Source: Euzebyella marina (GTDB lineage Bacteria; Bacteroidota; Bacteroidia; Flavobacteriales; Flavobacteriaceae). From it: a stretch of DNA of 64,000 nucleotides. Positions 22,686 through 60,101 of the stretch are shown here, in pieces. Location: NCBI RefSeq assembly GCF_014855515.1, contig NZ_JACYFK010000001.1:806001-870000 (forward strand), in the 5' to 3' direction. The first letter of the stretch is position 1. Each line of letters opens with the position of its first letter. Under the pieces are notes generated by a model. It was not told the origin of the DNA, ran no database searches, and saw only the letters and a list, made by a program, of their open reading frames with translations. The translations under genes and the position numbers were made by a program.

Positions 22686-22751
22686 TTCACAACACAACTA
22701 CCTAGCTACACAACAATAATTTAGAAAACAGGTAAGACAGCCGTAGTTTTA
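22686..22751 (+). promoter_or_regulatory. Direct-repeat promoter of small RNA A
   Basis: TTCACAACA (22686-22694) and a second copy, TACACAACA (22707-22715), begin 21 bp apart. After exactly 28 bp comes TAGTTTTA (22744-22751), a -7-like element (TAnnTTTA) followed by CATTG. The same geometry occurs at 45979-46044 and 60036-60101. Confidence 0.65.
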
Positions 22752-22756
22752 CATTG

Positions 22757-22889
22757 TAATTAAGTGATAGAGCAACCCCAAATCGCACCTTGAACTTAAC
22801 CTAGATTATGAAGTAACGAATCCCAAATCGGAACTTAAACTACCTACTCATACCTACAATAAAATCACCCTCTTTTAGAGGGTTTTTTT
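22757..22889 (+). ncRNA. Putative small RNA A
   Basis: About 133 nt without a meaningful reading frame, between a conserved promoter and a strong terminator (CCCTCT-TTT-AGAGGG, then seven T). Bases 22751-22770 are identical to 45979-45960 in copy B. It contains ACCCCAAATCGC (22775-22786) and TCCCAAATCGG (22821-22831), each followed by a GAACTTAA segment, so an internal repeat is visible. The C-rich motifs could be seeds for G-rich targets; this is inference. The start is estimated from the -7 element. Confidence 0.6.
22868..22889 (+). terminator. Rho-independent terminator of small RNA A
   Basis: CCCTCT, loop TTT, AGAGGG (22868-22882), then a run of seven T. Confidence 0.8.
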
Positions 22890-23133
22890 ATGTCTCAATT
22901 TTACATTTCGTTTCATGAAAAACAGTTTATTGTATCCGTTCATCGAAAAAATGAACGCTTTAACGTATTTCACCACAGGATAAGAGCTGTTCGCAACAAA
23001 ACTTTCTAAAAGAAAAGCACTAATGGTAAATTCGTAATGTATTTGAAATTTAGTGTTACGTCCCAAATTAAAACACTTGACCTAGGTTTGATTTTTTATT
23101 GACTGTACCAAATTACCGACCCTACTTAACAAA
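22890..23133. other. Gene-free stretch with no convincing feature
   Basis: Part of the 554-bp gap between hflX and the DUF3078 gene. A 22-codon plus-strand frame at 22915-22983 and a 63-codon minus-strand frame at 22875-23066 exist, but neither shows a start context, recognisable family or coding character. Confidence 0.4.
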
Positions 23134-23166
23134 AAATGCCGCAACCAATGGTTGCGGCATTTCTTT
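23134..23166 (-). terminator. Terminator of the suf operon/DUF3078 gene
   Basis: Thirteen-base perfect arms (23134-23146 and 23150-23162) around AAT. There are A-runs on the left and T-runs on the right, so it works in both directions; it lies 15 bp after the DUF3078 stop. Confidence 0.8.
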
Positions 23167-23181
23167 TTGTATCGCGTTATC

Positions 23182-24114
23182 TTAGAACGAATAGTTAAGA
23201 CCTAACAGGTAATAACTCTGTAAGTCGTTGTCAATATTCTCAAATGTAGGGGTTGGGGTCGGTAGGGGCTCAACTGACAATGCATTGGCCAAAGCCTCTT
23301 GCTTGTTGCCTCTTAATCCGAATTCAAAACCTACACCAATATTTTTCCAAAGGGTATAACCAAATGAGTTGATCCAGGTCCAATTAGACAGGTCACCATC
23401 CTTATAACTTTGAAAAGTAGAGAAGTTGGTCTTAAAGCTAATGGCACCTAACTGTTTTGTATAGTCGACTACGATTTTGGCACCAGCAGAAGATTCGTAA
23501 GCGGTATCATTATCGGCAAACACAAAGTTATAGTTCAACGGATGAATAACCACTACCATGTCTTTAATCGGCGTCCAAGTAGCACCAACACCAAGGTCAA
23601 GGTAACCAGGGTCGTTAAAATTATTGATGATTGAGGTACGGTATTCGCCCAAAGCCGAGATGGCAAATTTTGAGTTCAGTTTATAACCGTACAGTGATGT
23701 GATCGTAAATACATCGGTAGTACCAGTAAAGCCTTCTTCATCGGTCGGATCATCTTTATCGTCGATTTTTACCCATTGTAGGTTAACTACCCCTGAGTTT
23801 CTCCAGAAGAATTTTTCCTTATCCAAATTGGCAAAACCGTTAACGGTAACACCGATATTACCTGATGAGTTGTTAGGCACACCTTGCGAATACCAGTTAT
23901 TGAATTTTGAAAGATTGGCACCAATGGTACCGAAAGCTCCCGTCTTCCAACCAGGAAAAGCATCGATTTTAGACTGTAGGGCATTGACCCTACCCTGAAT
24001 AGCTTTGATGGAGTCTTTCTTGACCGCTTGCTCGGCCTTCAACTCATCGATTGTTTGCGCAAAACCCGCCGAAAAAGCCAGAATTGCGATACAAGAAATT
24101 ACTAATCTCTTCAT
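23182..24114 (-). CDS. DUF3078 outer-membrane protein
   Basis: 310 residues with a signal peptide ending at GFAQ. A short coiled-coil segment follows (about 22-50), then alternating aromatic strands typical of an outer-membrane beta-barrel, ending in an aromatic (LLGLNYSF). GWKTGAFGTIGANLSKFNNW is the DUF3078 signature region. Function unknown. It is the last gene of the suf-associated run and is followed by a strong terminator; the 79-bp gap to DUF2480 would permit cotranscription. Confidence 0.82.
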   Translation of the reverse strand: MKRLVISCIAILAFSAGFAQTIDELKAEQAVKKDSIKAIQGRVNALQSKIDAFPGWKTGAFGTIGANLSKFNNWYSQGVPNNSSGNIGVTVNGFANLDKEKFFWRNSGVVNLQWVKIDDKDDPTDEEGFTGTTDVFTITSLYGYKLNSKFAISALGEYRTSIINNFNDPGYLDLGVGATWTPIKDMVVVIHPLNYNFVFADNDTAYESSAGAKIVVDYTKQLGAISFKTNFSTFQSYKDGDLSNWTWINSFGYTLWKNIGVGFEFGLRGNKQEALANALSVEPLPTPTPTFENIDNDLQSYYLLGLNYSF

Positions 24115-24193
24115 AATGTTAATGTTAGTGAATACGTGTTTATTAACAACAAAGTTAACGATGCCAACATTTAATAAACAAGTTTATCAACGA

Positions 24194-24709
24194 TTATTTT
24201 CTCTTGAACAGAGGTACTGAAGAGCAAGCCTCACCGTACATGAGGGACTTTACGATAGGCTGTAAGCGCTGGGTTATCAACAAGTAAGCGTTTGGAGGAA
24301 CAGGCTTTCTGCTACAGCCCTTAACGATAACCAATTGGTCTTTAAAAGTACTCAGATCTAAATTTTCTATAACCGATTCGTAGAGAGAGGTCTCCAGTAA
24401 TTCTAAATCGCCCTGAACGACTTTTTTCGCAAAGGGAGCCAGTTTGGCCGCCAAAAGCATAAAGGCCCAACCGGGCACAATGGCATCGGTCGAACAGTGT
24501 ACCGCTACAAAAGCATCTTGGTATTGAGACCAATCATGAGACTCGATAGCAGCTCTAAAATCTTTTTCCCTAAGGATAATTCCCTCGAAAAGCCAATCAG
24601 AAATATCCAATGCTATTCGCGTACCTTTCGGGTAATAATCCTCTAGGTCGAATGTAATCAACTTACTCTGGGCGACCCTGTTTAAAATAGGTTCAGCGTT
24701 ATCGGACAT
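24194..24709 (-). CDS. DUF2480 family protein
   Basis: 171 residues from ATG 24709; an in-frame TTG three codons upstream is not needed. Conserved stretches include ITFDLEDYYPKGTR, DISDWLFEGIILREKDFR, FVAVHCSTDAIVPGWAFML and VIVKGCSRKPVPPNAYLLI. The conserved Cys residues and constant linkage to SUF genes in Flavobacteriia suggest a role in Fe-S biogenesis, but none is proven. It starts 13 bp after the SufT stop. Confidence 0.82.
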   Translation of the reverse strand: MSDNAEPILNRVAQSKLITFDLEDYYPKGTRIALDISDWLFEGIILREKDFRAAIESHDWSQYQDAFVAVHCSTDAIVPGWAFMLLAAKLAPFAKKVVQGDLELLETSLYESVIENLDLSTFKDQLVIVKGCSRKPVPPNAYLLITQRLQPIVKSLMYGEACSSVPLFKRK

Positions 24710-24722
24710 TTGATTCAATTTT

Positions 24723-25055
24723 CTATAGTAGGCCTAATTCTAATTTGGCTTCCTCGCTCATAAGGTCCTGAGTCCATGGTGGGTCAAAGGTAATTTCAAC
24801 CTCGGCATCCTTAACCAAATCTAAAGACTTGATTTTCTCCTCGACCTCTACAGGCAAAGATTCCGCCACAGGGCAATTGGGTGAGGTTAAGGTCATAAGA
24901 ATACGAACCTCATTATCTTCGTTGACCAGAACATCATAAATAAGTCCTAGTTCATATATATCAACAGGTATCTCGGGATCATAGATGGTTTTAAGAACCT
25001 TCACTATTTTTTCACCTAATTCACCTGTGTCTACTGTAGTTATTTCTTCGCTCAT
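24723..25055 (-). CDS. sufT: SUF-associated DUF59/MIP18 protein (SufT-like)
   Basis: 110 residues. The MIP18 fold is shown by YDPEIPVDIYELGLIYDV, TLTSPNCPVAESLP (conserved Cys) and ITFDPPWTQDLMSEEAK. Relatives help mature or transfer Fe-S clusters to client proteins. It sits between sufE and DUF2480 on the minus strand, consistent with the typical cluster order of the phylum. Confidence 0.92.
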   Translation of the reverse strand: MSEEITTVDTGELGEKIVKVLKTIYDPEIPVDIYELGLIYDVLVNEDNEVRILMTLTSPNCPVAESLPVEVEEKIKSLDLVKDAEVEITFDPPWTQDLMSEEAKLELGLL

Positions 25056-25086
25056 TTTTAACTTTTTTAGAAACTAGAAATGCCTT

Positions 25087-25509
25087 CTAATTCAATTGAG
25101 TTTGATAGGCCACCGCATACAATTTCAGCTGCTTGATCATACTTACCAGACCATTGGCCCTTGTAGGCGAGAGATGCTCCTTTAGACCAATTTCATCAAT
25201 AAACTCCGTATCCGCATCAATAATGTCTTGCGGCTTCTGGTTGCTAAAAGCCCTGATTAAAATAGCAATTATACCTTTTGTTATAATTGCATCACTATCG
25301 GCCGTAAAAACTAGCTTATCTTCTTCTAGTTCAGCATGTACCCATACTTTGCTCTGACAACCTTTTATAATATTATCCTCTGTTTTGTATTTCTCGTCAA
25401 TCAACGGAAGCGACTTGCCCAGTTCGATCATATATTCATATCGCTGCATCCAGTCATCGAACATAGAAAACTCGTCAACTATCTCTTCTTGAATCTCTTT
25501 AATATCCAT
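25087..25509 (-). CDS. sufE: Sulfur acceptor SufE
   Basis: 140 residues. The acceptor Cys51 lies in IIKGCQSKVWVHAEL, followed by FTADSDAIITKGIIAILIRAFSNQ, all typical of SufE. It takes persulfide sulfur from SufS and passes it to the SufBCD scaffold. It lies 73 bp after sufS and 31 bp before sufT. Confidence 0.95.
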   Translation of the reverse strand: MDIKEIQEEIVDEFSMFDDWMQRYEYMIELGKSLPLIDEKYKTEDNIIKGCQSKVWVHAELEEDKLVFTADSDAIITKGIIAILIRAFSNQKPQDIIDADTEFIDEIGLKEHLSPTRANGLVSMIKQLKLYAVAYQTQLN

Positions 25510-25582
25510 TCAATGAATTTTATGTAAAAATACGATAAGTATCAATGCCTATCAATTCTTTGGCACAAAGATGAATATTGGC

Positions 25583-26797
25583 CTATAAAAGCATGTTTTT
25601 TGCCCGTTTGACACCTTCGACCAAAATATCGACCTCTTCCTTCGTATTGTAAAAACTAAAGCTTGCCCTTACAGTGCCCGGTATTTTATAAAAATCCATA
25701 ATGGGCTGGGCGCAGTGATGCCCCGTTCTTACAGCAATACCCAGTTTGTCAAGAATTGTTCCGATGTCATAGGGATGGACTCCTTCAATATTAAAAGAGA
25801 TGACCGACGTCTTTTCTTGAGCGGTACCGTAAATCTTTAAGCCTTCAATCTCGAGCAATTTATTGGTAGCGTAATCAAGAAGTTCATGCTCATAGGCCTC
25901 CATCTCACTAAAACCAATAGAATTCAAATAATCCAAAGCCGCACCAAAAGCAATACCACCACAGATGTTGGGCGTACCAGCCTCAAACTTATGTGGCAAA
26001 TCGGCATAGGTCGTTTTTTCAAAGGTAACTTCGGCAATCATTTCACCGCCACCTTGATAAGGTGGTAACTTATTCAACCATTCTTCCTTACCATAAAGTA
26101 CACCCACCCCGGTAGGACCACACATCTTATGTGCCGACACCGTGTAAAAATCAACATTTAATGCCTGTACGTCAGCTTTGATATGCGGTGCCGCCTGAGC
26201 ACCGTCGATTAGCACAGCAGCACCAACTTTATGAGCCTCATCGATAATAGTAGCTATCGGATTGATGGTACCCAAAGCATTCGAAACGTGATTGCAGAAA
26301 ACCAGTTTAGTATTGCTACTCAACAGATTTCTATATTCATTCATCATGAGCTCTCCCTGTTCGTTCATTGGAATCACCTTAAGAATCGCTCCCGTTCTTT
26401 CTGCCAGCATCTGCCAAGGCACAATATTACTGTGGTGCTCCATCGCAGAAACCAAAATTTCATCTCCTTTTTGAAGCAATGATGAAAAACCGTTGGCCAC
26501 CAAATTAATACCGTGGGTCGTACCCGACGTAAAGATGATTTCTTTTGCCTTCGAGGCGTTGAAATGCCTTTGAATCTTTTGTCTCGCCTGTTCGTATTTG
26601 TCCGTTGCTTCCTGCGATAAAAAATGCACTCCGCGATGAATGTTCGCATTGTAGGAAGAGTAGTAATCCACAATCACCTCGATTACCTGCTGTGGCGTTT
26701 GGGAAGTAGCCGCATTATCAAGATAAACCAATGGTTTTCCGTTGACTTCTCTACTTAATATGGGGAAATCCTTACGGATTTTTTGCGCATTTAACAT
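25583..26797 (-). CDS. sufS: Cysteine desulfurase SufS
   Basis: 404 residues from the ATG at 26797, giving the usual SufS N-terminus MLNAQKIRKDFPIL; an upstream extension of 18 residues (to 26851) has no conserved character. The PLP lysine is in YTVSAHKMCGPTGVGVL. The catalytic Cys362 is in RTGHHCAQPIMDF, the short-loop form of group II desulfurases. It converts cysteine to alanine plus an enzyme-bound persulfide that SufE collects. Confidence 0.96.
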   Translation of the reverse strand: MLNAQKIRKDFPILSREVNGKPLVYLDNAATSQTPQQVIEVIVDYYSSYNANIHRGVHFLSQEATDKYEQARQKIQRHFNASKAKEIIFTSGTTHGINLVANGFSSLLQKGDEILVSAMEHHSNIVPWQMLAERTGAILKVIPMNEQGELMMNEYRNLLSSNTKLVFCNHVSNALGTINPIATIIDEAHKVGAAVLIDGAQAAPHIKADVQALNVDFYTVSAHKMCGPTGVGVLYGKEEWLNKLPPYQGGGEMIAEVTFEKTTYADLPHKFEAGTPNICGGIAFGAALDYLNSIGFSEMEAYEHELLDYATNKLLEIEGLKIYGTAQEKTSVISFNIEGVHPYDIGTILDKLGIAVRTGHHCAQPIMDFYKIPGTVRASFSFYNTKEEVDILVEGVKRAKNMLL

Positions 26798-26878
26798 AGC
26801 ATTCTTATTGAACTGCAAAGATATTGGTTTCAGAAGGAAATACAGCTTCAAACACTTCTTTTGAGCCTGGCAAATGAT

Positions 26879-27478
26879 TCAGAACCTGAACCCAATACCG
26901 GCCTTAAAAACATTTAAACTTTTACCTCTAGTCTCGTATCGGTAGACATTGTTTTCATAATCTGCTTCTGCCAACCATTTTTGACGATGATTGAGGTAGT
27001 CGTATTGAATTTTTACAAAGAACCTATTAGTCAAATCATAACTCAACCCCAGATTAGCATTAAAAGCACCCCAGCTGTCCGATTCGTTATATCCTGAATC
27101 AACTATCTTACGGTCGTATTCATCTAAAAGAACGGAATAACCAACACCAACGCTCGGTTTTAACCTGCTTATTCCTGGCAAGTTTAATTCACCAAAAACA
27201 GTTGGCTGAAGCAACAAACGTTTCCATTTGTTATCGAATTCCAAATTGTCATCAAAATAAAAGTGCTGGCGGTCGGCAAAAAAAGAACCGTTTAAGCCTG
27301 CACCGAGCTGAATAATACCAAGATTCACAAATCTGTATTTGACACCTAAGTCGATAACCCCGTTTAATCCGTCTTCGTCTATGATTGGATAATTGGCCTC
27401 TACACTCCATTTTTTATCTTGGGCACAAAGACCGATCGAAGCAAAAAATAGGGCGCAAAAAAGTAATTTTGAATTCAT
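26879..27478 (-). CDS. Outer-membrane beta-barrel protein inside the suf cluster
   Basis: 199 residues with a signal peptide ending in GLCAQ. It has an alternating polar/aromatic pattern and a terminal aromatic (AGIGFRF), which suggests a small eight-stranded outer-membrane barrel. No enzymatic motif. It lies between sufD and sufS; the 137-bp upstream gap contains an inverted repeat that covers its start codon. Whether it belongs to Fe-S metabolism is unknown. Confidence 0.75.
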   Translation of the reverse strand: MNSKLLFCALFFASIGLCAQDKKWSVEANYPIIDEDGLNGVIDLGVKYRFVNLGIIQLGAGLNGSFFADRQHFYFDDNLEFDNKWKRLLLQPTVFGELNLPGISRLKPSVGVGYSVLLDEYDRKIVDSGYNESDSWGAFNANLGLSYDLTNRFFVKIQYDYLNHRQKWLAEADYENNVYRYETRGKSLNVFKAGIGFRF

Positions 27479-27527
27479 CTGAAATGTTTTAGGTTGAAAT
27501 TGTTTTCGACCAAATTAGATGAATTCA
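27470..27527 (-). promoter_or_regulatory. Leader hairpin that can mask the OMP start codon
   Basis: Eleven-base perfect arms: TGAATTCATCT at 27470-27480 and AGATGAATTCA at 27517-27527. In the minus-strand mRNA the downstream arm contains the ATG (27476-27478) of the barrel gene, so pairing would sequester it. The loop is 36 nt. Confidence 0.4.
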
Positions 27528-27615
27528 GATGTAGGAAAATCTAACGACTTGTTAATACATAGCCAACAAACTGCCAAAAAATATCGGCAATTCACAAAAA
27601 ACTTAAAGTGGATTT

Positions 27616-28932
27616 TTAGAGGTCAAACCCTAGGTTAACTCCTAATTTCTTAGCAATCAACTTATTGATTCGCGCCTTCACCTCAGGTATACGAACACTG
27701 GCCAGAACGTTATTGGCAAAAGCATACATCAATAATGCTCGGGCTTCTTTCTTAGGAATTCCTCGCGATTGAAGATAGAAAAGGGCATCTTCGTCTAGTT
27801 GACCAATAGTACAGCCGTGCGAACACTTCACGTCATCAGCAAAGATTTCTAATTGAGGCTTGGTGTTTATAGTTGCCTTATCGCTTACCAAAAGGTTATT
27901 GTTCTGCTGAAAGGCATTGGTTTTTTGGGCAATCTTATCTACTATAATCTTACCGTTAAAAACACCCGTCGCGTTTTCACCATAAATACCTTTATAATCT
28001 TGGTGGCTCTCACAATTCGGCTCAATATGGTGCACTAACGTATGATGGTCGACATGTTGTTTGTTACCCAAAATGGTCACACCCTTCATAGTAGAGTCGA
28101 CATGCTGACCGTTCTGATAGAAGTTAAGATTGTTTCGAGTCAATTTGCCCCCAAACGAAAAGGTGTGCACGCTAACGGCACTCTTACTTTTCTGATCTAT
28201 ATAGGTATTGTCGATCAGTGATGCATTTTCGGCATCATTTTGAATCTTATAGTAATCGACAATAGCGTTATCGGCAGCGAAAATTTCGGTAACACTGTTC
28301 GTCAAGACCTCGTTTGAAGTCAAGCTCTGATGACGCTCGATTACCTGTAATTCAGCGTTTTCTTCGGCAATAATCAAATTTCTTGGTTGCAATAGCAAAG
28401 AAGCCTCGTTACCCGTTGAGAAGTGGATAATTTCCACCGGCTTTTTAGGCATCTTGTTCTTAGGAATGTAGATATAGGCTCCTTCTCTACTAAACGCCGT
28501 ATTCAGGGTAGTTAACGACTCATCTTTCGATGCAATTTTGTTGAAATATACATCAATTACAGGGCGGTACATGGGCTTGGTTAGCGCCGAGCTCATCAAA
28601 CAGATGTCGACCCCATCGTGCGTAGTTTCGGAAAGATAAGAAGAGTAAATACCATCAATGAAAACAATCTTATAAGAATCTATCTCATGCAAGAAATACT
28701 TCTTAACCTCTTTATACTCGAGGGCATTCTCCTCTTTAGGAAAAATGCTAAAATCAATCTTTTGAAGACTGTTTAACGAAGTGTATTTCCAAGCTTCCTC
28801 CTTTTTACTGGGAAAACCTTTCAATTCAAAATTTTTCATTGCCTCTGTACGAAGATCGTGCACGGGGTGCTCAATATCTACGTTACTCTCAAAGGCCATG
28901 AAAGATGATATCAGTTTATCTTTTAAATCCAT
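27616..28932 (-). CDS. sufD: Fe-S cluster assembly protein SufD
   Basis: 438 residues from ATG 28932 (MDLKDKLISSF); ten further codons upstream are open but unconserved. Central right-handed beta-helix typical of SufB/SufD. Conserved stretches are LNFYQNGQHVDSTMKGV, QDYKGIYGENATGVFNGKI, and DDVKCSHGCTIGQLDEDALFYLQSRGI with the family Cys and His near the C-terminus. It is part of the SufBC2D scaffold. It follows sufC by 53 bp. Confidence 0.95.
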   Translation of the reverse strand: MDLKDKLISSFMAFESNVDIEHPVHDLRTEAMKNFELKGFPSKKEEAWKYTSLNSLQKIDFSIFPKEENALEYKEVKKYFLHEIDSYKIVFIDGIYSSYLSETTHDGVDICLMSSALTKPMYRPVIDVYFNKIASKDESLTTLNTAFSREGAYIYIPKNKMPKKPVEIIHFSTGNEASLLLQPRNLIIAEENAELQVIERHQSLTSNEVLTNSVTEIFAADNAIVDYYKIQNDAENASLIDNTYIDQKSKSAVSVHTFSFGGKLTRNNLNFYQNGQHVDSTMKGVTILGNKQHVDHHTLVHHIEPNCESHQDYKGIYGENATGVFNGKIIVDKIAQKTNAFQQNNNLLVSDKATINTKPQLEIFADDVKCSHGCTIGQLDEDALFYLQSRGIPKKEARALLMYAFANNVLASVRIPEVKARINKLIAKKLGVNLGFDL

Positions 28933-28985
28933 AGTGTAATGTAATTGCAATAATGGCTTCACTACTGAGCGAAACCTGAGGCGGT

Positions 28986-29738
28986 TTAGACTACTGCTTC
29001 ATTCTTCAACCAATCGTATCCTTTTTCCTCTAGCTCTAACGCCAATTCTTTTCCACCAGATTTTACAATCTTACCATTGTGCAATACATGCACAAAATCA
29101 GGTACGATATATTCCAAAAGTCTTTGGTAGTGGGTAATTACGATGACGGCATTGTCTTTACTCTTCAATTTATTCACCCCATTGGCAACGATACGAAGAG
29201 CGTCGATATCCAAACCGGAATCTGTCTCATCTAAAATGGCCAATTTAGGCTCAAGCATGGCCATCTGAAAAATTTCGTTTCGCTTCTTTTCACCTCCTGA
29301 AAAACCTTCGTTCAAAGAGCGGGAAAGAAATCTTCGGTCAATATCAAGAAGCTCAGATTTTTCTCTGATCAGCTTCAACATTTTGTTTGCTGGCATTTCC
29401 TCTAGACCGCGTGCTTTTCTAGACTCATTGATAGCAGTCTTAATGAAGTTGGTAACGGAAACCCCAGGAATTTCTACCGGATATTGGAAAGAAAGGAAAA
29501 CCCCTTTATGAGCTCTTTCCTCAGGGGAAACCTCATCTAAATCCTCACCGTTCAACTCTACCGAACCTTTGGTTACCTCAAATTCTTCTTTACCGGCAAT
29601 AACCGCAGAAAGTGTACTCTTTCCGGAGCCATTGGGGCCCATAATTGCGTGAACCTCGCCAGCATTTACCTCAAGGTTAATGCCTTTTAATATTTCTTTA
29701 TCCTCAATACCGGCATGTAAATCTGTAATCTTTAACAT
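28986..29738 (-). CDS. sufC: Fe-S cluster assembly ATPase SufC
   Basis: 250 residues. ABC ATPase with Walker A GPNGSGKST, Q-loop region FLSFQYPVEIPGV, signature FSGGEKKRNE, Walker B LAILDETDSGLD and switch His VITHYQR. It energises the SufBCD scaffold. It lies 68 bp downstream of sufB. Confidence 0.97.
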   Translation of the reverse strand: MLKITDLHAGIEDKEILKGINLEVNAGEVHAIMGPNGSGKSTLSAVIAGKEEFEVTKGSVELNGEDLDEVSPEERAHKGVFLSFQYPVEIPGVSVTNFIKTAINESRKARGLEEMPANKMLKLIREKSELLDIDRRFLSRSLNEGFSGGEKKRNEIFQMAMLEPKLAILDETDSGLDIDALRIVANGVNKLKSKDNAVIVITHYQRLLEYIVPDFVHVLHNGKIVKSGGKELALELEEKGYDWLKNEAVV

Positions 29739-29806
29739 AAATTCTCTTCTTAACTTCTAAGATTAAAGGCCTTTCGCCTCCTTAAAGTATTTTTTGATTG
29801 TATCGC

Positions 29807-31252: not shown

Positions 31253-31261
31253 AGTTTCTTT

Positions 31262-31591
31262 TTACAATGAAAAACTCTCTCCGCAACCGCAGGTTCGCTG
31301 TGCGTTCGGGTTGTTGAAAACAAACCCCTTTCCGTTAAGTCCACCGGAATACTCCAGAGTCGTACCAACTAGATAAAGAAAGCTTTTTTTATCTACAATG
31401 ATGCGTACGTTGTTATCTTCAAAAACCTTATCGGTATCGCCGACTTTATTATCAAAATCTAATTCATAGGAAAGTCCGCTACAACCGCCACTCTTAACAC
31501 CCACACGCACATAATCTTTAGAAGAGTCAAACCCTCCTTCAGACATTAGGTCAATAACCTTTTTTCTGGCTGATTCAGATACCTGTATCAT
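31262..31591 (-). CDS. sufA: A-type Fe-S carrier (HesB/IscA/SufA family)
   Basis: 109 residues. The three cluster-binding cysteines are in SGGCSGLSYEL and near the C-terminus in CGCGESFSL. It carries Fe-S clusters from the scaffold to targets. It is the first gene of the suf operon, with a putative promoter 29 bp upstream; no Rrf2-family regulator gene (IscR/SufR) is present in the cluster. Confidence 0.93.
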   Translation of the reverse strand: MIQVSESARKKVIDLMSEGGFDSSKDYVRVGVKSGGCSGLSYELDFDNKVGDTDKVFEDNNVRIIVDKKSFLYLVGTTLEYSGGLNGKGFVFNNPNAQRTCGCGESFSL

Positions 31592-45805: not shown

Positions 45806-45973
45806 AACAAAAAAGCCCTTCGAAAAGGGCTCTTTTTGTTAAGTAGGTACACTGTTTTTTGGTTTTCCGATTGGGGTCGGATAATTTTTTGTAGGTTCTA
45901 GTTTCGATTGGGGATCGTAACTATTTCGGTTAAGTTCAAGGGGCGATTTGGGGTCAACACTATCACTTAATTA
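45806..45973 (-). ncRNA. Putative small RNA B
   Basis: About 168 nt on the minus strand between a direct-repeat promoter and the hairpin at 45814-45831. Its first bases (45979-45960) are identical over 20 nt to small RNA A. Three CCCCAA(A)TCG motifs are present, seen on the plus strand as CGATTTGGGG 45944-45953, CGATTGGGG 45905-45913 and CGATTGGGG 45868-45876, spaced 37-39 nt apart. No coding frame. The first motif continues as TCGCCCC, the exact complement of the loop GGGGCGA at 38504-38510. Confidence 0.6.
45814..45838. terminator. Bidirectional terminator of the VPS10-like gene and small RNA B
   Basis: AGCCCTT, loop CGAA, AAGGGCT, with A-run on the left and T-run on the right. Confidence 0.8.
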
Positions 45974-45978
45974 CAATG

Positions 45979-46044
45979 TAAATCTACGGCGCTTAATTCG
46001 GGTTTCTAAATTATTGTTGTGAAGTAGCCCCTAGTTGTTGTGAA
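45979..46044 (-). promoter_or_regulatory. Direct-repeat promoter of small RNA B
   Basis: Read on the minus strand: TTCACAACA (46044-46036), TTCACAACA (46023-46015), 28 bp, then TAGATTTA (45986-45979) followed by CATTG. Repeat offset is 21 bp. Geometry is identical to copies A and C. Confidence 0.65.
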
Positions 46045-50183: not shown

Positions 50184-50185
50184 GT

Positions 50186-52993: not shown

Positions 52994-53088
52994 CAGACCG
53001 AATAGTTCATTCATCATTTTTAAGCCTAGTCGAATATACACCGTTCTTACCGGTGACCGATGGATTGTTTACGATTATCTGCTTTTCT

Positions 53089-53170
53089 ATGTGTAATCCC
53101 TATTTCAAGACAACCGAAAACCAACTCATAGGTCGGTAATTGATTTTATAGTTGATTTTGATTACACATT
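53089..53170 (-). other. Long-range inverted repeat at the 3' end of a lipoprotein gene
   Basis: ATGTGTAATC (53089-53098) and GATTACACAT (53161-53170) are perfect inverted copies 62 bp apart, with a smaller ACCGA/TCGGT pair between them. The right arm covers the stop codon of the lipoprotein gene. It may be a 3' mRNA structure. Confidence 0.35.
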
Positions 53171-53963
53171 AATAGGTTATAGTATAATCAGCAGAATAAC
53201 TAGCATCATCACTTGAAATAGTGAACTTTTCAAGGTGTCCAGATTCCGATCTTTGAACCTCATCAATTGAAAAGTTAGCACCTGCTGAAGAAAAAGAGCC
53301 TATATTTTTCATGCTTAAAAAGTAAATCTCACTAGGGTTGTAATAATAATTCATTCCGAACCACAATAGCATCGGAGAAGGTATTTTGGCCTCGTGAAAA
53401 AGGCCTTTTTCGAAATTATCGTGTGCTAGTTGCCATCTAGTACCATTGAAATCTATTTCTTCTAAATTACCATCGGAATCAAAAAGTATTTCGGTTAAAG
53501 GTCCTGTTTGATAATCCAGATAATAGGTTCGATTGGGCACATCATAGCTTAGTTCAGAATCTTTCTTTGATCCATTTGAAACCATAGCGACATCAGCCAG
53601 GTCGCCATTACTCAAATAAGTAAAAAAGACATTTCTACCAACCCCATTCAAAACATCATCAGTAGACACTGCTGTAAGATTGTCATCGGTAGAATACAGA
53701 AATTCAGAAAATACATGATATAAATCTCCATCTGAATTACGTTGCAAGTCAATGCTTCTTATCTGTTTATTTGCATTATAGGCAAACTCGTAGCTAGCAT
53801 TATGTACTTCGCTGAAATTTATTTGAATTTGTTTCGGTAAATTTGACACCTCTTCTTCTGGTTGCTGTTCAATCTGACCTTGATTATCATCATTCGAACA
53901 ACCAATTAATAATACCAGCAATGCTGCCTTTAAAACGAAAGAAATGTTCTTCATTTTTATCAT
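53169..53963 (-). CDS. Lipoprotein, unknown function
   Basis: 264 residues; two in-frame ATGs (53963, 53954) are equally possible. Lipobox LLIGC followed by SNDDNQGQ. The mature part is beta-rich, with repeating patterns such as YSTDDNLTAV, YLSNGDLADV and FDSDGNLEEI that recall RHS/YD-type or DUF4595-like lipoproteins. No specific function recognised. Appears monocistronic. Confidence 0.7.
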   Translation of the reverse strand: MIKMKNISFVLKAALLVLLIGCSNDDNQGQIEQQPEEEVSNLPKQIQINFSEVHNASYEFAYNANKQIRSIDLQRNSDGDLYHVFSEFLYSTDDNLTAVSTDDVLNGVGRNVFFTYLSNGDLADVAMVSNGSKKDSELSYDVPNRTYYLDYQTGPLTEILFDSDGNLEEIDFNGTRWQLAHDNFEKGLFHEAKIPSPMLLWFGMNYYYNPSEIYFLSMKNIGSFSSAGANFSIDEVQRSESGHLEKFTISSDDASYSADYTITY

Positions 53964-54114
53964 GATAATTTTATTAGTGCGAAAAATCTTTACTTGAAAT
54001 TATATAAGAGTACTGACCCTAATCGCCGGTAATCGCTGAAATAATTTGGAGCATCTAATCAAAAGTTCAATTGTTCAATAGCTGAAGGTCATCGATAGTC
54101 CAGTAGGTCATTTT

Positions 54115-54233
54115 CTACTTAATACCTTGTTCACCTTTTGGGCCAATCTCTCCATCTGCAATGCCTTTTGAGCATGCAATTAGACAACTGGTCAATACGG
54201 CGAATAGGGCATTGTTTTGTTTTTTGCTTTCAT
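54115..54233 (-). pseudogene. Broken duplicate of the collagen-like lipoprotein
   Basis: On the minus strand an ATG-AAA start (54233) is followed by a frame shift. In the shifted frame the sequence reads ALFAVLTSCLIACSKG, a lipoprotein signal, then DGEIGPKGEQG, two or three Gly-X-Y triplets, then a stop. This mirrors the start of the intact gene 86 bp away ([14 protein letters not shown] ... GPQGEQG), so it looks like a decayed tandem copy. The rest of the 355-bp gap 53964-54318 shows nothing. Confidence 0.6.
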
Positions 54234-54318
54234 TATAAATGTCTTATCTACTTTTTTAGTAAGAGAATACGGCCCGTGAAAGAATCACTAGGCCGCTTTC
54301 AACCTCACTGCCATAGAA

Positions 54319-54960
54319 TTAATGGGGAATATTGAAGTAGTCTACCACCTCTTCATAAGACATTTTAGAAAAATCTTGAGAACCTGCTTTAGATGACACG
54401 CCTCCGATTCCATTACTAGCTTCAACCCCTCCAGGAATAAGCACGTATCGATAGGTGGTAAAAAGAGGAGTACCTATGTTCGATCCATCTGTAGTGGTCA
54501 ACCTTATATTAATTTCTTCAATGTTGAAGTAGTAGTAGTAAGAAACACCTTGATTACCCATATACGGTAAGGCGTAAACATTACCATTTGACTCTATTTT
54601 ACCAAAGACCAATACGTTGCCCATTTCGACAATGTCTTGACTTAGACCGGCAACATTTAGTGAACCATTGGCTGTTGGTGCTTCAATATTGTTATCATTA
54701 TCGACAATTGGAGATTCTATCCAATCGGAATAAATCACATTAGCGGTTCCAGGGTCTCCTTGCTCGCCTTGTTCGCCTTCAACACCTTGTTCTCCTTGGG
54801 CTCCATCCGCTCCTGCATCGCCCTGCGGCCCTGTCGGACCTTGTTCTCCTTGTGGGCCTTGAGGACCGACGGCACCATCTTCACCATCTTTAGAACATGC
54901 TACTACACTTATAACTGCTAACAGAACAATCAATAAGTTACTTTTCAATCTAGTTTTCAT
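54319..54960 (-). CDS. Collagen-like Gly-X-Y repeat lipoprotein
   Basis: 213 residues from ATG 54960; an upstream TTG adds two residues. Lipobox VVAC followed by SKDGEDG. Residues about 26-75 are some fifteen uninterrupted Gly-X-Y triplets ([16 protein letters not shown] and onward), able to form a collagen-like triple helix. The remaining 140 residues are a globular domain of beta character present in other Bacteroidota lipoproteins. Surface-exposed trimer is inferred. Confidence 0.85.
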
Positions 54961-54988
54961 AGTCAAATATTTTAGAATTAATAATGAC

Positions 54989-55015
54989 CAAAACTAGCTT
55001 GGTTGAAAATTCAAA
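54989..55015 (-). promoter_or_regulatory. Putative promoter of the collagen-like lipoprotein
   Basis: Minus strand: TTTG (55015-55012), 15 bp, TAGTTTTG (54996-54989). The -7 match is exact; spacing is shorter than usual. Confidence 0.4.
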
Positions 55016-55236
55016 ATGTCCGAAATCATTAAGGTTAAAAAAATTAGGACTATTTCAAAACACTGATTATCAATTATTTACATATTAAAAATGTAACTTT
55101 ATACAACAAGACCTACAAAGCGTACAGCTAATTCTACCATCTATACAAAAAGCAAGAAAATTCTATTTTTTTAGTAGTTTAGAGTAAAAGTTCTACTCGT
55201 TAATATTGAAAGAGAAAGGAAAGGAAATCGTTAGCT

Positions 55237-56313
55237 TTAGGAAAAAGCCACTTTTCTAGAACGAGCCTGTTTGCGAAACTCGGTTGGGGTCATACCACAG
55301 TATTTTTTAAAGGCCAAATAAAAGGAGGATTTAGAGTTAAAACCGGCCTCAAGCCCCACCGACACGACGGTGTAGCCATTAAAATCACTATCAGCTAGCA
55401 TGTCTTCGGCATCGGAAACCCTAAAACGGTTGATTGAATCGGTAAAACTTTGATTTTCGAGCTTATTAACCAATTGTGATAGATAAGTAGCGCTGATGTT
55501 CAATACTTCAGATACCGAGGTAAGACTGACATCGGGATTGCGATATATTTTTTCTACAATCAAAAGGCGCCTGAACTCTTTATAATAGGCATTGCCATTG
55601 GTCAAGGGTAGGTTGCTTTTTTTCTCGATTCTTTGAAGTTTAATCGCTGTTAATTTGGCAATTAACCTAAATAGGGCCAAGTGCCTAGAGGTAAAGAACC
55701 CTTTGGTGCTATGCTCAGAATCAAGTACCCCTAACATGACCCCATCATCTATAATTGGAACGGCCAATTCTGAATACCTCCTTTTGTCATCAAGAATGTA
55801 TCTTTTGTCCAAAGAAGTGTCAGATACCATAATGGGTTGTTCACTTGCAGCTACTTCCCCAACTATCCCTTTTCCCATGGGGATTTTGATAGGACTCAAA
55901 ATTTGTTTTTGCCCCTTATGCTTATTGCCAAAGGCTGCTTTCTGTTCTAGCGATTGGTCTTTTTCATTTAAAAGATAGATGACACAGTCTTCTAACCCTA
56001 ATTGAGAAATACAGTTTTGGGAAATATCCCAAAGAACCGCTTCTGAACTATTCTTGTCGAATAGAGAGGTAGCGAAATAACCGAGAACAGAGGCAAGTTC
56101 ATAATTGTTCTTATCCTTTACCAACTCAGTGGCCTGAAAAATATCTTTTAATCCCTCCACAAAAAACCTACCCTCTTCACCAATCGCCTGTACTTCGTTG
56201 CTAGTTTGATTTTTAATGGTTTTAAATCGATTTGCTTTCTTGAAAAGCAAAAGAATTAAGACCATTATAAACACAAGTACACATATAGGGATAATTATAC
56301 TTAATAGATTCAT
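55237..56313 (-). CDS. Membrane-anchored GAF-domain AraC-type regulator
   Basis: 358 residues. A single N-terminal membrane helix (about 5-25) is followed by KKANRFK. Residues 75-225 form a GAF domain (AVLWDISQNCISQLGLEDCVI, GKGIVGEVAASEQPIMVSD, ELAVPIIDDGVMLGVLD). Residues 255-350 form an AraC double HTH ending in FKKYCGMTPTEFRKQ. A DNA-binding protein tethered to the membrane is unusual and implies sensing near the envelope. Targets unknown; it has its own promoter. Confidence 0.87.
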   Translation of the reverse strand: MNLLSIIIPICVLVFIMVLILLLFKKANRFKTIKNQTSNEVQAIGEEGRFFVEGLKDIFQATELVKDKNNYELASVLGYFATSLFDKNSSEAVLWDISQNCISQLGLEDCVIYLLNEKDQSLEQKAAFGNKHKGQKQILSPIKIPMGKGIVGEVAASEQPIMVSDTSLDKRYILDDKRRYSELAVPIIDDGVMLGVLDSEHSTKGFFTSRHLALFRLIAKLTAIKLQRIEKKSNLPLTNGNAYYKEFRRLLIVEKIYRNPDVSLTSVSEVLNISATYLSQLVNKLENQSFTDSINRFRVSDAEDMLADSDFNGYTVVSVGLEAGFNSKSSFYLAFKKYCGMTPTEFRKQARSRKVAFS

Positions 56314-56339
56314 GGCAATGCATTAGTGGGTGATACTGC

Positions 56340-56347
56340 CAAAGTTA
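56340..56347 (-). promoter_or_regulatory. Putative -7 element of the GAF-AraC gene
   Basis: Minus-strand TAACTTTG matches TAnnTTTG, 26 bp upstream of the start codon. Confidence 0.4.
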
Positions 56348-56428
56348 GAATTGCCATTTTACAATGAATACCACAGGTGTAACAGCTTATAGGACATATG
56401 TAACATCACTTTTATTAGGCCTAAAAAA

Positions 56429-56442
56429 CGACCGTTTGGTCG
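56429..56442. promoter_or_regulatory. TetR-like palindrome
   Basis: CGACC, GTTT, GGTCG (56429-56442), the ACCGACC...GGTCGGT-type pattern often bound by TetR/AcrR regulators, in the gap upstream of the GAF-AraC gene. No TetR gene is in the window. Confidence 0.3.
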
Positions 56443-56466
56443 GTGAACATTGCAGAAAGAAGAAAT

Positions 56467-56494
56467 AGCGGTCATCAATGAATCATTGACCGCT
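56467..56494 (-). terminator. Terminator of the ThuA-DUF2721 operon
   Basis: Eleven-pair stem (CATTGACCGCT with AGCGGTCA...ATG, three-base bulge) followed on the minus strand by TATTTCTTCTTT, 100 bp after the DUF2721 stop. Confidence 0.5.
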
Positions 56495-56593
56495 GCATTT
56501 TGTAATACAACCGCATTGAACTCAAAAGAAAAGTAGAATGTTCAAATGAAAACGGACTAGGCAGTCTAATCCTCCAAAACCGTGTCGCTAATT

Positions 56594-56983
56594 TTATTTT
56601 TCCATATTTTCTAATTGTATGGACAGTGCTTTCGTAGAAAGTTGCACTTCAATCAGGGAAAGAATTAAACTTATCATTAGAGCTAAGAGGCTAACGCCAA
56701 AAATCAGGTTGGCCCATATGGGTTGTTCAATATATATCATCGACATAGTTATAACCGCCAGCAAAAAACTGAAAATCGCAGTGGCCTGCATATTCTTGAT
56801 AATGCCCAATCGTTTACGCAATTGTTTTACCTGCAGTGCCAACGCAGCCGATTCTGTTTCTTGGTATTTTTGATGTAGTTGTCTTATCAAGGCCGCAATT
56901 GCCAAATATCTCGCATTATAGGCCAACATAGTCAACGAAATGGCCGGGAATAATAATGCCGGAATACTTAATGTCAACTCCAT
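56594..56983 (-). CDS. DUF2721 membrane protein
   Basis: 129 residues with three hydrophobic helices: one at the N-terminus (IPALLFPAISLTMLAYNARY) and two after a charged coiled segment (IFSFLLAVITMSMIYI and NLIFGVSLLALMISLILSL). The layout matches DUF2721. Function unknown. It starts immediately at the end of the ThuA gene, so the two are cotranslated. Confidence 0.8.
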   Translation of the reverse strand: MELTLSIPALLFPAISLTMLAYNARYLAIAALIRQLHQKYQETESAALALQVKQLRKRLGIIKNMQATAIFSFLLAVITMSMIYIEQPIWANLIFGVSLLALMISLILSLIEVQLSTKALSIQLENMEK

Positions 56984-57970
56984 TTATCTTTGAAACTTTT
57001 CAGAGCTGGTCTCGTTCTCGCTTGGGAAATTTTCAGGAATCTTTTGGGTTACTTCACCGGTAGCCGCCCATTCGGCCCCACGAAGCATGCTAGTTAGAAA
57101 CCCGACGCCTTCAACCGAGTAATCGGCATGCCCCATTATATTATGAAATATTCTTCCTTTGCCATACTCCAAAACCATAAGGGCGGGCTCGTGACGTTCG
57201 GTTCCTTTAAATTCAGCCGATGAGTAGGCTGTTGCGAGTACCTCCATATTTTCTGCCGGGCCCCGCAACCGATCATAAAGTTCGTCTTTTACATGCAACC
57301 ATTTTGCTGGCAGTCCTTTAGTAATCGGATGTTCCGTATTGCGAATTTCAATAGTATACTCATGCTGCGGGCCATGGGCCCCCGCTTTTCCTGGTGAAGT
57401 ATCCCTGATAAGTTCACCTGCATCATTATAATAGACATAAGGGCCGTCTTTCTCTGTTCGGTCTCCCCAACCACCTATTCCAATCATTTGATTATAGGCC
57501 TCCCAATCGGGAAAGCTATTATCGGCAGCGTGAAATACAACTAATCCGCCCCCTTTTTTTATAAACTTTTCAAAGGCTTTTTTAGTTTTCTCAGGCCATG
57601 GGGCGGCATTCCAACCAAAATTACAGACCACTAAATCGTACTTTGAGAAATCGGGATTATAATTAGGGTCTGCCTTGGGTTCTTTCAAGGCCTGCGTTTC
57701 CGGCAGTCCTTCAATTTTATACTCGCTTATCAAATCATCACCTTGCCAAGTAAAAGCCGAACGGGCAACATCTACTGTGAAAAGCCCCGTCTTTTCCATC
57801 TCGGTCTTTAACATATAGCTTATTTTGGGCCAATGCTCATGGTTGTTTTGCCCATCTACTATTAATGTTCTTATTTCTTTGGTTTTCATATCCGATTTGG
57901 ATTGAGAGGTCGCAGTAACGCCTATCATCAGAGCGGCTAATAGCACCCAAAATTTCCCAAGTGTTCCCAT
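56984..57970 (-). CDS. Secreted ThuA-domain protein
   Basis: 328 residues from ATG 57970; six more codons are open upstream. Signal peptide ending near VTATSQ. The ThuA fold shows in RTLIVDGQNNHEHWPKISYM, YDLVVCNFGWNAAPW, GGGLVVFHAADNSFPDW, HPITKGLP and GRIFHNIMGHADYS. Proteins of this type often accompany glycan degradation in Bacteroidota, but the reaction is unproven. It belongs with DUF2721 in a two-gene unit. Confidence 0.88.
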   Translation of the reverse strand: MGTLGKFWVLLAALMIGVTATSQSKSDMKTKEIRTLIVDGQNNHEHWPKISYMLKTEMEKTGLFTVDVARSAFTWQGDDLISEYKIEGLPETQALKEPKADPNYNPDFSKYDLVVCNFGWNAAPWPEKTKKAFEKFIKKGGGLVVFHAADNSFPDWEAYNQMIGIGGWGDRTEKDGPYVYYNDAGELIRDTSPGKAGAHGPQHEYTIEIRNTEHPITKGLPAKWLHVKDELYDRLRGPAENMEVLATAYSSAEFKGTERHEPALMVLEYGKGRIFHNIMGHADYSVEGVGFLTSMLRGAEWAATGEVTQKIPENFPSENETSSEKFQR

Positions 57971-58017
57971 GATTATATTTTGTCCCATAAATATAATCGA
58001 TTCAATTAAAGATTGTC

Positions 58018-58046
58018 TTTGCGATGAAAAGTATCTGCTATTTTAG
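58018..58046 (+). promoter_or_regulatory. Putative promoter of the aminotransferase gene
   Basis: TTTG (58018-58021), 17 bp, TATTTTAG (58039-58046), close to consensus, 20 bp before the ATG at 58067. Confidence 0.4.
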
Positions 58047-58066
58047 TGCAAAATTCATTCTTGACT

Positions 58067-59224
58067 ATGCAAGCTTTTAAGAACCCAGGCCGTTCAAAAC
58101 TGCCAAATGTTGGCACTACCATTTTCACTACCGTTGGTATTTTGGCCAAACAGCATCGAGCTATTGATCTTTCACAAGGCTTTCCAAATTTTGAAGCTGA
58201 TCCTAGACTTTTCGAACTGGTAAACAAGGTAATGCATGAAGGGTACAATCAGTATGCACCGATGCAAGGAGACTATTCTCTTAGGGAAACCATTGCAAAT
58301 AAAATAGAGAAGTTACATGGTACGGTCTATCATCCTGAAATGGAAATAACGGTTACGGTCGGTGCAACGCAGGCCATATTCACAGCTATTGCGGCCTTTA
58401 TTTCGCCCGGAGACGAAGTTATTATTCTCAAACCTGCCTATGATTGTTATGAACCGGCTATCGAGTTGAACGGGGGTATACCCGTACCTATTCAAATGGG
58501 CTTAAATGACTATGCTATCGATTGGGATGCGCTGAAAAATGCCATAACCCCGAAGACGAAAATGCTTGTGCTCAACACACCTCATAACCCAAGTGGAAAG
58601 GTGTTCAGTAAAAACGAATTACAAAAGCTTGAGACTATTTTAGAGCCGACGGATATCATTGTGGTAAGTGATGAAGTCTACGAGCATATTGTCTTTGATG
58701 AAAACGAACATATTAGCCTTTCTCAAATTGAAGGATTGGCAAACAGGAGCTTTATTTGTGCTTCTTTCGGTAAGACTTTTCATGTAACCGGTTGGAAAGT
58801 GGGCTATTGTGCAGCCCCGAGCGAATTAATGAAAGAATTTAGAAAAGTTCATCAATTCGCTGTTTTCTGTGTCGACCACCCTACGCAAAAGGCCATGAAC
58901 ACATATTTGCAGGATGAGTCACTCTATCTGGGACTAAAGAGTTTTTATCAGAAAAAGAGAGATTTCTTTCTTAACGCTTTAAATTCTTCTAGGTTTACTT
59001 ATTCACCATGCGAAGGAACCTACTTTCAACTCTTGAATTACTCTCAAATTACCAATGAAAATGATGAAGCTTTCGCCCGTAGACTTATCATAGAATTTGG
59101 TATCGCCTGTATACCAATCTCCTCGTTCAACCTAAATCGGAGACAAGACGGTGTGCTGCGTTTTTGCTTTGCAAAAAAGAATGAGACCCTAGAGAAAGCT
59201 GCGGAAATCTTATGTGGACTCTAA
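58067..59224 (+). CDS. ybdL: PLP-dependent aminotransferase, YbdL (methionine aminotransferase) type
   Basis: 385 residues from ATG 58067; a GTG at 58046 falls in the promoter. Fold-type I class I/II: DLSQGFPNFEADPRL, YNQYAPMQGDYSLRE, TVTVGATQAIFTAI, LNTPHNPSGKVFSKNEL, VSDEVYEHIVFDE, and the PLP lysine in SFGKTFHVTGWKVGY. It probably transaminates methionine/aromatic 2-oxo acids, as in methionine salvage. It converges with a GNAT gene. Confidence 0.9.
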   Translation: MQAFKNPGRSKLPNVGTTIFTTVGILAKQHRAIDLSQGFPNFEADPRLFELVNKVMHEGYNQYAPMQGDYSLRETIANKIEKLHGTVYHPEMEITVTVGATQAIFTAIAAFISPGDEVIILKPAYDCYEPAIELNGGIPVPIQMGLNDYAIDWDALKNAITPKTKMLVLNTPHNPSGKVFSKNELQKLETILEPTDIIVVSDEVYEHIVFDENEHISLSQIEGLANRSFICASFGKTFHVTGWKVGYCAAPSELMKEFRKVHQFAVFCVDHPTQKAMNTYLQDESLYLGLKSFYQKKRDFFLNALNSSRFTYSPCEGTYFQLLNYSQITNENDEAFARRLIIEFGIACIPISSFNLNRRQDGVLRFCFAKKNETLEKAAEILCGL

Positions 59225-59243
59225 TAATCTTTTGGAAATTCGA

Positions 59244-59774
59244 CTACGACAAATCGAACCGCATGAGCCAATCGGTCTGTACATCGTCTCCTATGGGGTA
59301 AGGATGGGTTCCGAACTTTGAAAACCCATTTTTTTGATAAAAACGTATGGCACCTTCATTCTTCTCCCAAACACCCAGCCACAGAAATTTCTTCTCTGCT
59401 TCCAAAGCAATCTCCTTAACTGCATTCATGAGTTCTTTTCCTATTCCTTTTCCTTGAAACTCATTGAGAACATAGATACGCTCCAGTTCTATGGTGTCCG
59501 CGTCCTTCACATCGGTTTGCGCCCCATGTTGATTAACTTTAAAATACCCTGCGATTTTATCATTTACAAACACAAAATAGAACTCTGAATCGGGGTTCTG
59601 TAGCTCTAGGGAGAGCTTTTCCTTTGAAAAAGAAGAATTAAGATACGTCTTAAAATCTTCAGGATTATTTTGATGTTCGAAGGCGTCTTTAAATGTTTGT
59701 CTTGAAATAGAGATGAGTAATTCAAGATCATGCTCTTCGCACTTTTGAATAGCTAGTGAATTGTTTGCGTCCAT
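59244..59774 (-). CDS. GNAT-family N-acetyltransferase
   Basis: 176 residues. Motif A is visible as LERIYVLNEFQGKGIGKELMNAV, with the Q/RxxGxG/A loop QGKGIG, and motif B as WLGVWEKNEGAIRFYQKNGFSKFG. This resembles PaiA/SpeG-like acetyltransferases; substrate unknown. It is followed by only 19 bp before the convergent aminotransferase. Confidence 0.88.
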   Translation of the reverse strand: MDANNSLAIQKCEEHDLELLISISRQTFKDAFEHQNNPEDFKTYLNSSFSKEKLSLELQNPDSEFYFVFVNDKIAGYFKVNQHGAQTDVKDADTIELERIYVLNEFQGKGIGKELMNAVKEIALEAEKKFLWLGVWEKNEGAIRFYQKNGFSKFGTHPYPIGDDVQTDWLMRFDLS

Positions 59775-59796
59775 TTCACTAATTTAAAAAAATGCA

Positions 59797-60030
59797 TAAA
59801 AAAAAGAGCAACCTTTGGGGAAGTTGCTCTTTTAAATTTTTTATTCAAAAAGTCTTATAGCATAAACAACTTTTTGGTTAGAAGTACGATACCACTCAAG
59901 AATTCATATTTGTAGACTTGAATGTCTTCACGGGTTTGGTTCATTTGGGCTTCCATAGACTGTAGGTTTAGTTCAAAAAAATTAAGACTTGGTAAGGGTT
60001 TTGGTATTAGCAACACTTGCAATTAATAAC
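59797..60030 (-). ncRNA. Putative small RNA C
   Basis: About 234 nt on the minus strand between the direct-repeat promoter and the terminator at 59805-59830, in the 399-bp gap between scoB and the GNAT gene. The first bases (ACATTGTTATTAAT) resemble copies A and B; farther in, only short C-rich motifs (AAACCC, AGCCCAAAT) are reminiscent of them. The longest ATG frame is nine codons, so it is non-coding. The shared promoter is the main evidence. Confidence 0.55.
59805..59830 (-). terminator. Terminator of small RNA C
   Basis: AGAGCAAC and GTTGCTCT arms with an extended inner pair and one bulge, then a run of eight T on the minus strand. Confidence 0.75.
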
Positions 60031-60035
60031 AATGT

Positions 60036-60101
60036 AAATGTAGCTTACCATTATAAGTTTAAAAAATAGATGTTGTGAACCTACCGTAAAATGTTGTGAA
60101 A
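60036..60101 (-). promoter_or_regulatory. Direct-repeat promoter of small RNA C
   Basis: Minus strand: TTCACAACA (60101-60093), TTCACAACA (60080-60072), 28 bp, TACATTTA (60043-60036) followed by CATTG. Offset 21 bp, as in copies A and B. Confidence 0.65.

Follow-up and report, generated by a model that had tools for sequence, protein, structure and literature searches.

The window analysed here, 64,000 nucleotides of the Euzebyella marina genome, contains three promoters (A, B and C) that are built alike around a pair of direct repeats. These repeated promoters are real, and we find it rather likely that they belong to a LytTR-type two-component system which co-induces multi-site sponge RNAs together with mRNAs sharing a site for the same small RNA (sRNA), a multicopy species that we call the hub sRNA. 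Our data suggest an RNA sponge network that appears to be undescribed so far. The features on which the argument rests are listed below, with G and L numbers denoting genomes and loci.

22686..22756 (+), promoter A, TTCACAACA-N12-TACACAACA-N28-TAGTTTTACATTG, read in the sequence and found in pattern scans
22757..22889 (+), predicted class I RNA A, with a putative start and an intrinsic terminator at its end (stem 22867-22883)
22969..23039 (+), probable promoter A2, a degenerate copy (TTCACCACA..TTCGCAACA, TAAATTCGTAATG) whose repeat pair has 2 mismatches
23040..23168 (+), predicted RNA A2, diverged and class I-like (terminator stem 23134-23162)
45974..46044 (-), promoter B, read in the sequence and found in pattern scans
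45808..45973 (-), predicted class I RNA B; it has a terminator (stem 45836-45809), and its hairpin loops are C-rich
60030..60100 (-), promoter C, read in the sequence and found in pattern scans
59855..59956 (-), 33-codon open reading frame (ORF) of transcript C, MEAQMNQTREDIQVYKYEFLSGIVLLTKKLFML, an ORF call; relatives have homologues behind this promoter
59797..59833 (-), terminator of transcript C (stem 59833-59802)
G000:C1:1238733-1238803, promoter D, the fourth genomic copy, outside the window, matching the full pattern with 1 mismatch
G000:C1:1095258-1095965 (+; L022 1758-2466), hub array of four sRNAs of ~75 nt between purF-like and superoxide dismutase genes, found by BLAST and reading

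Promoters A, B and C share the build TTCACAACA-N12-TTCACAACA-N28-TAnnTTTACATTG, in which two 9-bp repeats start 21 bp apart and are followed, after 28 bp, by the -7 box TAnnTTTACATTG; the second repeat of promoter A reads TACACAACA. A first-pass annotation of the window had proposed three identically built direct-repeat promoters, and we confirm them at 22686-22756 (+), 46044-45974 (-) and 60100-60030 (-), together with its statement that the 28-bp spacer of C is conserved in length and not in sequence, as judged against the spacers of A and B. For the paired repeat by itself (≤3 mismatches) the window has 4 places where 0.60 are expected, and as many as 4 turned up in 2 of 100 shuffles. Repeat pair and -7 box together (≤3 mismatches) are found at 4 places in the 4.67-Mb genome and at none with the reversed control, and mismatches to the full pattern number 0 for B and C and 1 for A and D. 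A slightly looser exact pattern yields 3 places in the genome, all of them within the window. The pair at 22969 (+), whose -7 box deviates from the motif, is probably a degenerate member (A2) of the promoter set, and homologues of A2, placed alike behind the A site, are present at L041, L042 and L096 (3-5 mismatches).

The genome-wide pattern search that the annotation had recommended carries the motif beyond the window: it returned the fourth site, D, in this genome and, at ≤3 mismatches to the full pattern, 61 places in 24 of 149 genomes of the Flavobacteriaceae (reversed control 0), with all three genomes of the genus (3/3) represented. Across these sites the 12-bp and 28-bp spacers differ in sequence, and certain neighbourhoods recur, with an HflX-type GTPase at 20 and a CoA-transferase pair at 10 of 71 loci, some of them overlapping. 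Some relatives carry the promoter plus short-transcript unit triplicated in tandem (L060, L063, L067). At L051, L053 and L089 the sites precede one gene family, of which the L051 member has collagen-like GPQGPIGLTGATG repeats; a collagen-repeat protein is encoded in the window at 54319-54966 (-).

Clustering of the ORFs of at least 90 amino acids from the 71 loci brought out a response regulator, 70-91% identical among its copies, that adjoins the sites in five genomes; two more members of the cluster (L086, L094) are distant LytTR paralogues. According to Pfam, the regulator consists of a receiver and a LytTR domain, and its partner kinase of TPR, HisKA_2 and HATPase domains. In this genome both genes are located outside the window (G000:C2), where the regulator gene has a UbiA-type gene next to it and is separated from the TPR-HisKA_2-HATPase kinase gene by two repeat pairs, each with 1 mismatch. 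The protein is 98% identical to the regulator of Euzebyella saccharophila. Regulator matches (E≤1e-45) occur in 31 of the 149 family genomes, namely in all 24 promoter-bearing ones and in 7 others, and carriers include Euzebyella, Zobellia, Pseudozobellia, Pricia, Maribacter, Eudoraea and Muriicola. None of the 118 genomes lacking the regulator has the promoter (Fisher 8e-22, a value that needs careful reading because related genomes were counted as independent and the regulator label needs just 3 changes on a SodA tree of 39 genomes). That tree took 39 of the 46 hub loci described below, leaving out 5 without a SodA match and 2 with too short a match.

Stronger evidence than this co-occurrence is the linkage between regulator genes and sites. 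In a first set of 30 regulator loci, 26 have a repeat pair (≤2 mismatches) somewhere within 3-3.7 kb. From a second set we kept 80 of 276 loci, of which 78 were testable, the other two having less than 700 bp downstream of the gene; among these 78, 2 have less than 700 bp upstream. A sense repeat pair (≤2 mismatches) lies within 900 bp downstream of the gene in 72 of the 78 loci, and the same loci have no downstream pair in antisense and no upstream pair on either strand. Taking the best pair irrespective of a box (an earlier tally had ranked box-bearing pairs first), a -7-like box stands at 28 bp in 54 of the 72 loci and at 29 bp in another 5; the remaining 13 show none at 15-44 bp. Set by eye against the LytTR consensus, the repeats fit in their geometry and not obviously in their letters. 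A LytTR response regulator is well supported as the putative controller of these promoters. The annotation had inferred that one such regulator co-activates several small RNAs; this is supported for the regulator (24 of 24 promoter-bearing genomes, 72 of 78 loci) and has to be amended for the outputs, as transcript C is coding.

Terminator-like hairpins are present behind A, A2, B and C, and the terminators that had been announced behind all three original promoters correspond to the stems listed above. The accompanying statement that no gene follows these promoters stands for A and B (ORFs of 80 amino acids) and falls for C with its 33-codon ORF. Predicted RNAs of the A, B and D type form class I, to which the A2 RNA probably also belongs. 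Their length, counted to the first T-run if there is one, is about 130-186 nt; they have a 5' UAAUUAAGUGAUAG, ACUUAA and CCUAC elements, and 1-5, mostly 2-4, matches to a loose CCCAAA-type pattern. The set behind this description also takes in transcripts of loci identified through complementarity to the hub. In single-sequence folds the C-rich stretches often fall in hairpin loops (CCCCAAA(U)-like), and the first predicted hairpin is often closed by UUAAGU paired with ACUUAA.

Homologues of the C ORF, 33-35 amino acids long with one more distant member of 41, stand behind the same promoter in relatives, and these microprotein genes lie near a CoA-transferase pair and a GNAT gene. Other predicted outputs of the promoter include mRNAs whose proteins begin like signal peptides and the mRNA of a second microprotein. 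This second microprotein (MLYDTYGEEYLxFLxxLNEILSLNELAELDYL) is encoded behind the same promoter type at L075 and L076 1501 (+), and at L230. Pfam returned no family for either microprotein at E≤5, and NCBIfam none for the one in the window. A further short RNA, type M, accounts for 9 of 77 transcripts; it stands behind the same repeat pair, contains UUUUCAUUUUCAUAUAGUGUUCUC and a terminator-like hairpin, and is without complementarity to the hub sRNA. Type M was seen at L047, L050, L057, L061, L071, L086, L092 and L102, and also at regulator loci such as L272, L273 and L332.

BLAST of RNA A against its own genome gave four short matches in one spot, and the strand opposite these matches carries four tandem units of ~75 nt that are complementary to A; by eye, a -7-like box and a terminator-like hairpin can be made out in every unit. 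The predicted fold of this hub sRNA comprises a 5' hairpin and a terminator, with an outer stem plus weak inner pairs. With a model of the four units (R1), relatives turn up at E≤0.1 in 137 of the 149 family genomes; for 129 of these the E-value is below 1e-9, and the other 8 matches are weak (8.9e-6 to 0.075), all E-values being rough. A 40-nt core, CCATAGCATAAGTAGGTTAAGTT[C/T]ATGGTAAGATTTGGG[G/A], is nearly constant in 101 copies from 30 loci with variable terminators; this near-invariance is partly selected because the 30 loci come from the best-scoring genomes, and the comparison kept 101 of 109 rows, with 8 rows of 25-28 bits dropped. At 16 lower-scoring loci, 28 of 31 copies have a core that differs by one G-to-A change and lacks one base. 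Within the examined stretch, a PurF-like protein is encoded at 44 and a superoxide dismutase at 41 of the 46 hub loci. The dismutase is named after Pfam Sod_Fe, PurF after an NCBIfam match that stays under the curated cut-off. Scanning the phylum for the core (≤3 mismatches) gave 9 of 392 genomes, all within the 46 of Flavobacteriaceae, which does not amount to absence elsewhere because the deletion variant is invisible to such a scan.

Rfam did not provide an identity for RNA A or the hub, and we rejected its rows at E 0.02-5, all of which fell below the family cut-offs. The recommended comparison with families such as Flavo-1 gave no match: the window has no match at gathering score, none of the rows for RNA A at E≤5 is Flavo-1, and the hub loci L022 and L023 gave at E≤1 only rows below gathering score, none of them Flavo-1. 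FopS, for which an Rfam deposit is reported (PMC11697453), gave no row for L022 at E≤1 in an Rfam copy whose inclusion of FopS is unconfirmed. Two BLAST matches of A away from the class I and hub sites, at L015 and L016 (read as L024 and L025), were set aside, no repeat pair being seen there.

Class I RNAs contain, per transcript, 12.1 exact 7-mers complementary to the hub core versus 1.0 after shuffling (n=28); the values are 5.5 versus 0.84 for other transcripts (n=40) and 0.33 versus 0.57 for type M (n=9). Among promoter-found transcripts, a complementary 8-mer is present in 26 of 27 class I RNAs, 29 of 40 others and 1 of 9 of type M, compared with 9.7% of 1999 random stretches; these counts leave out transcripts from loci found through the complementary motif itself. 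Control 8-mers were found, for class I, others and type M respectively, in 0, 3 and 1 with the sense core, in 0, 5 and 1 with the reversed core and in 2, 8 and 0 with the complemented core. Class I matches concentrate on CCCCAAATC and GAACTTAACCTACTTA and nearly avoid TTACCA and TGCTATGG, the stretches facing the two arms of the outer stem predicted for the hub. Of 38 half-site pairs, 17 keep the 9-nt distance given by the core register. There are several hub-complementary sites per RNA, as expected of an RNA sponge. On the mRNA side, GAACUAAACCUACAGUCUAUGG, which spans the start codon of the 33-codon ORF of C, is largely complementary to the hub sRNA, and the whole transcript C against the hub gives a duplex z of -5.3.

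The pattern CCCCAAATC-N7-GAACTTAACC (≤3 mismatches) occurs at 24 places in 3 genomes (reversed control 3), and half of these places are hub arrays in antisense. A converse scan by the complementary motif alone, with several spacers, hit 28 of 395 family genomes at 47 places in all and gave 24 reversed-control matches, so that many of the places are chance; 30 of the 47 were examined as loci, some from genomes already used, which leaves their independence partial. With the 7-nt spacer, the promoter pair (≤1 mismatch) lies 62-64 nt upstream in 13 of 16 loci; in the other three (L227, L230, L235), where the motif stands directly before an ATG, a pair with 2-3 mismatches lies 54-57 nt upstream. 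With other spacers, 1 of 14 loci (L224) has the promoter pair, and L234 has a pair with 4 mismatches.

Several observations weigh against a LytTR-controlled sponge network. The ratio of 24 reversed-control to 47 real matches in the converse scan is one; another is that the 'other' transcripts are also raised in the controls (complemented 8/40, reversed 5/40), and stretches at regulator loci have a complementary 8-mer in just 16 of 67 cases, with 0 of 17 for type M there. The class I members are homologous, hence their matches are not independent, and their shared sequence may in part be kept for folding, given the predicted pairing of ACUUAA with the 5' UUAAGU. The regulator is largely limited to one part of the tree, and its co-occurrence with the promoter does not represent 24 independent events. 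Seven of the 31 regulator-bearing genomes have no full promoter at ≤3 mismatches; five of these have a pair plus box at 28 bp at their regulator loci, G055 has a pair and no box, and G061 yielded no locus. Finally, many of the genomes with a hub match gave no match to the promoter or the class I motif, so the hub must have other partners.

Four other explanations have to be weighed against this evidence. Complementarity between class I RNAs and the hub carries no direction, and the class I RNAs could be trans-acting regulators in the manner of the streptococcal csRNAs, with the hub as their target or decoy; csRNAs are likewise several similar sRNAs under one two-component system (PMC8186281). 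We regard this as rather unlikely, as the hub is far wider (129 of 149 genomes, E<1e-9) than the promoter (24 of 149), class I RNAs mostly have 2-4 loosely defined CCCAAA sites, and mRNAs under the same promoter type have such a site before their ATG. RsmY and RsmZ follow the logic of RNA decoys for a protein, and the repeated predicted hairpins with CCCCAAA-type loops would suit an RNA-binding protein, with class I RNAs as its decoys and the complementarity to the hub as a secondary feature. This is improbable in our judgement: the complementarity reaches AACTTAACCTACTTA, which lies outside the C-rich loops, and among 27 class I RNAs the sense and reversed core controls found none and the complemented one 2.

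The remaining two concern the promoters themselves. A 21-bp offset between direct repeats is known for AraC-type dimers as well, and a gene for a GAF-AraC protein sits between B and C (55237-56313, minus strand), with long matches (E<1e-70) in 8 of 149 genomes, all 8 promoter-bearing. There is only a very small chance that this protein is the controller, since a match below 1e-70 is lacking in 16 of the 24 promoter-bearing genomes and G001, of the same genus and with sites of 0, 0, 1 and 3 mismatches, has none at E≤1e-15; we rejected it as the general regulator on account of its absence from G001. A mobile or structural element, copied recently and with no regulatory role, could explain the repeats and would suit the 79% identity of A to B and to D over ~150 bases. 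We consider it most improbable, as the geometry is constant while spacers and downstream classes differ, and the sites recur in the same neighbourhoods (HflX-type GTPase, CoA-transferase pair).

In the sponge model that we favour, the receiver-LytTR regulator would bind the 9-bp direct repeats just 5' of the -33 region and activate transcription from TAnnTTTA promoters. Its outputs would be the non-coding class I RNAs A, B, D and probably A2 and the microprotein mRNA C, and in relatives also other mRNAs and the type M short RNA. The hub sRNA would pair in the cell near the start codons of the regulon mRNAs and repress them, and the multi-site class I RNAs would act as sponges that titrate the hub, so that the two-component switch might make the targets and lift hub control together. 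The bolder claim of a two-layer RNA switch in marine Flavobacteriaceae, in which targets are expressed only after the sponge has cleared the hub and the hub is an undescribed core regulator of the family, seems to us slightly less than an even bet. Post-transcriptional control is little known in this bacterial group, and here a regulator, its site geometry, the RNA outputs and a likely partner can be named from sequence alone. The hub sRNA, with a 40-nt core little changed across the family, offers a concrete object, and the pairing idea predicts base changes and phenotypes.

LytTR promoters such as those of AgrA, AlgR and ComE carry, 5' of the core promoter, two direct repeats of 9 bp that are separated by 12 bp. 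The promoters described here resemble them in 9-bp repeats ~21 bp apart and in a LytTR regulator linked to the sites, and differ from them in a TPR-HisKA_2 partner kinase and in repeat letters whose fit to the consensus is not obvious. The -7 box agrees with the TAnnTTTG placed at -12 to -5 in Flavobacterium psychrophilum (PMC9723704). Like the Rfp RNAs of that species, the hub is a conserved flavobacterial sRNA; Rfp18 pairs via a third stem-loop, whereas the predicted hub fold has one hairpin and a terminator (PMC9723704). The passages available from the open-licence literature hold no description of this regulon, of the hub sRNA or of a LytTR site in Flavobacteriaceae, and those on csRNAs and FopS mention no RNA that is both controlled by a two-component system and complementary to a multicopy sRNA.

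By analogy, csRNAs and FopS appear to be the nearest systems in logic. Both the csRNAs (PMC8186281) and the RNAs predicted here combine one two-component system with several similar sRNAs, direct-repeat promoters and complementarity to start regions. The streptococcal CiaRH system uses the CiaR repeat TTTAAG-N5-TTTAAG, which the present sites lack, and the present regulator is of the LytTR type and from another phylum; no complementary partner sRNA comparable to the hub is described for csRNAs in the passages available (PMC8186281). FopS RNAs are multicopy Bacteroides sRNAs that repress translation near start codons, and their titration by the protein RbpB was considered (PMC11697453). The hub is likewise a multicopy Bacteroidota sRNA with a conserved part, which in FopS is the 5' seed, and a terminator. 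Compared by description, FopS has a single-stranded 5' stretch where the hub has a predicted 5' hairpin, and unlike FopS the hub copies stand in one tandem array and would be titrated by an RNA (PMC11697453).

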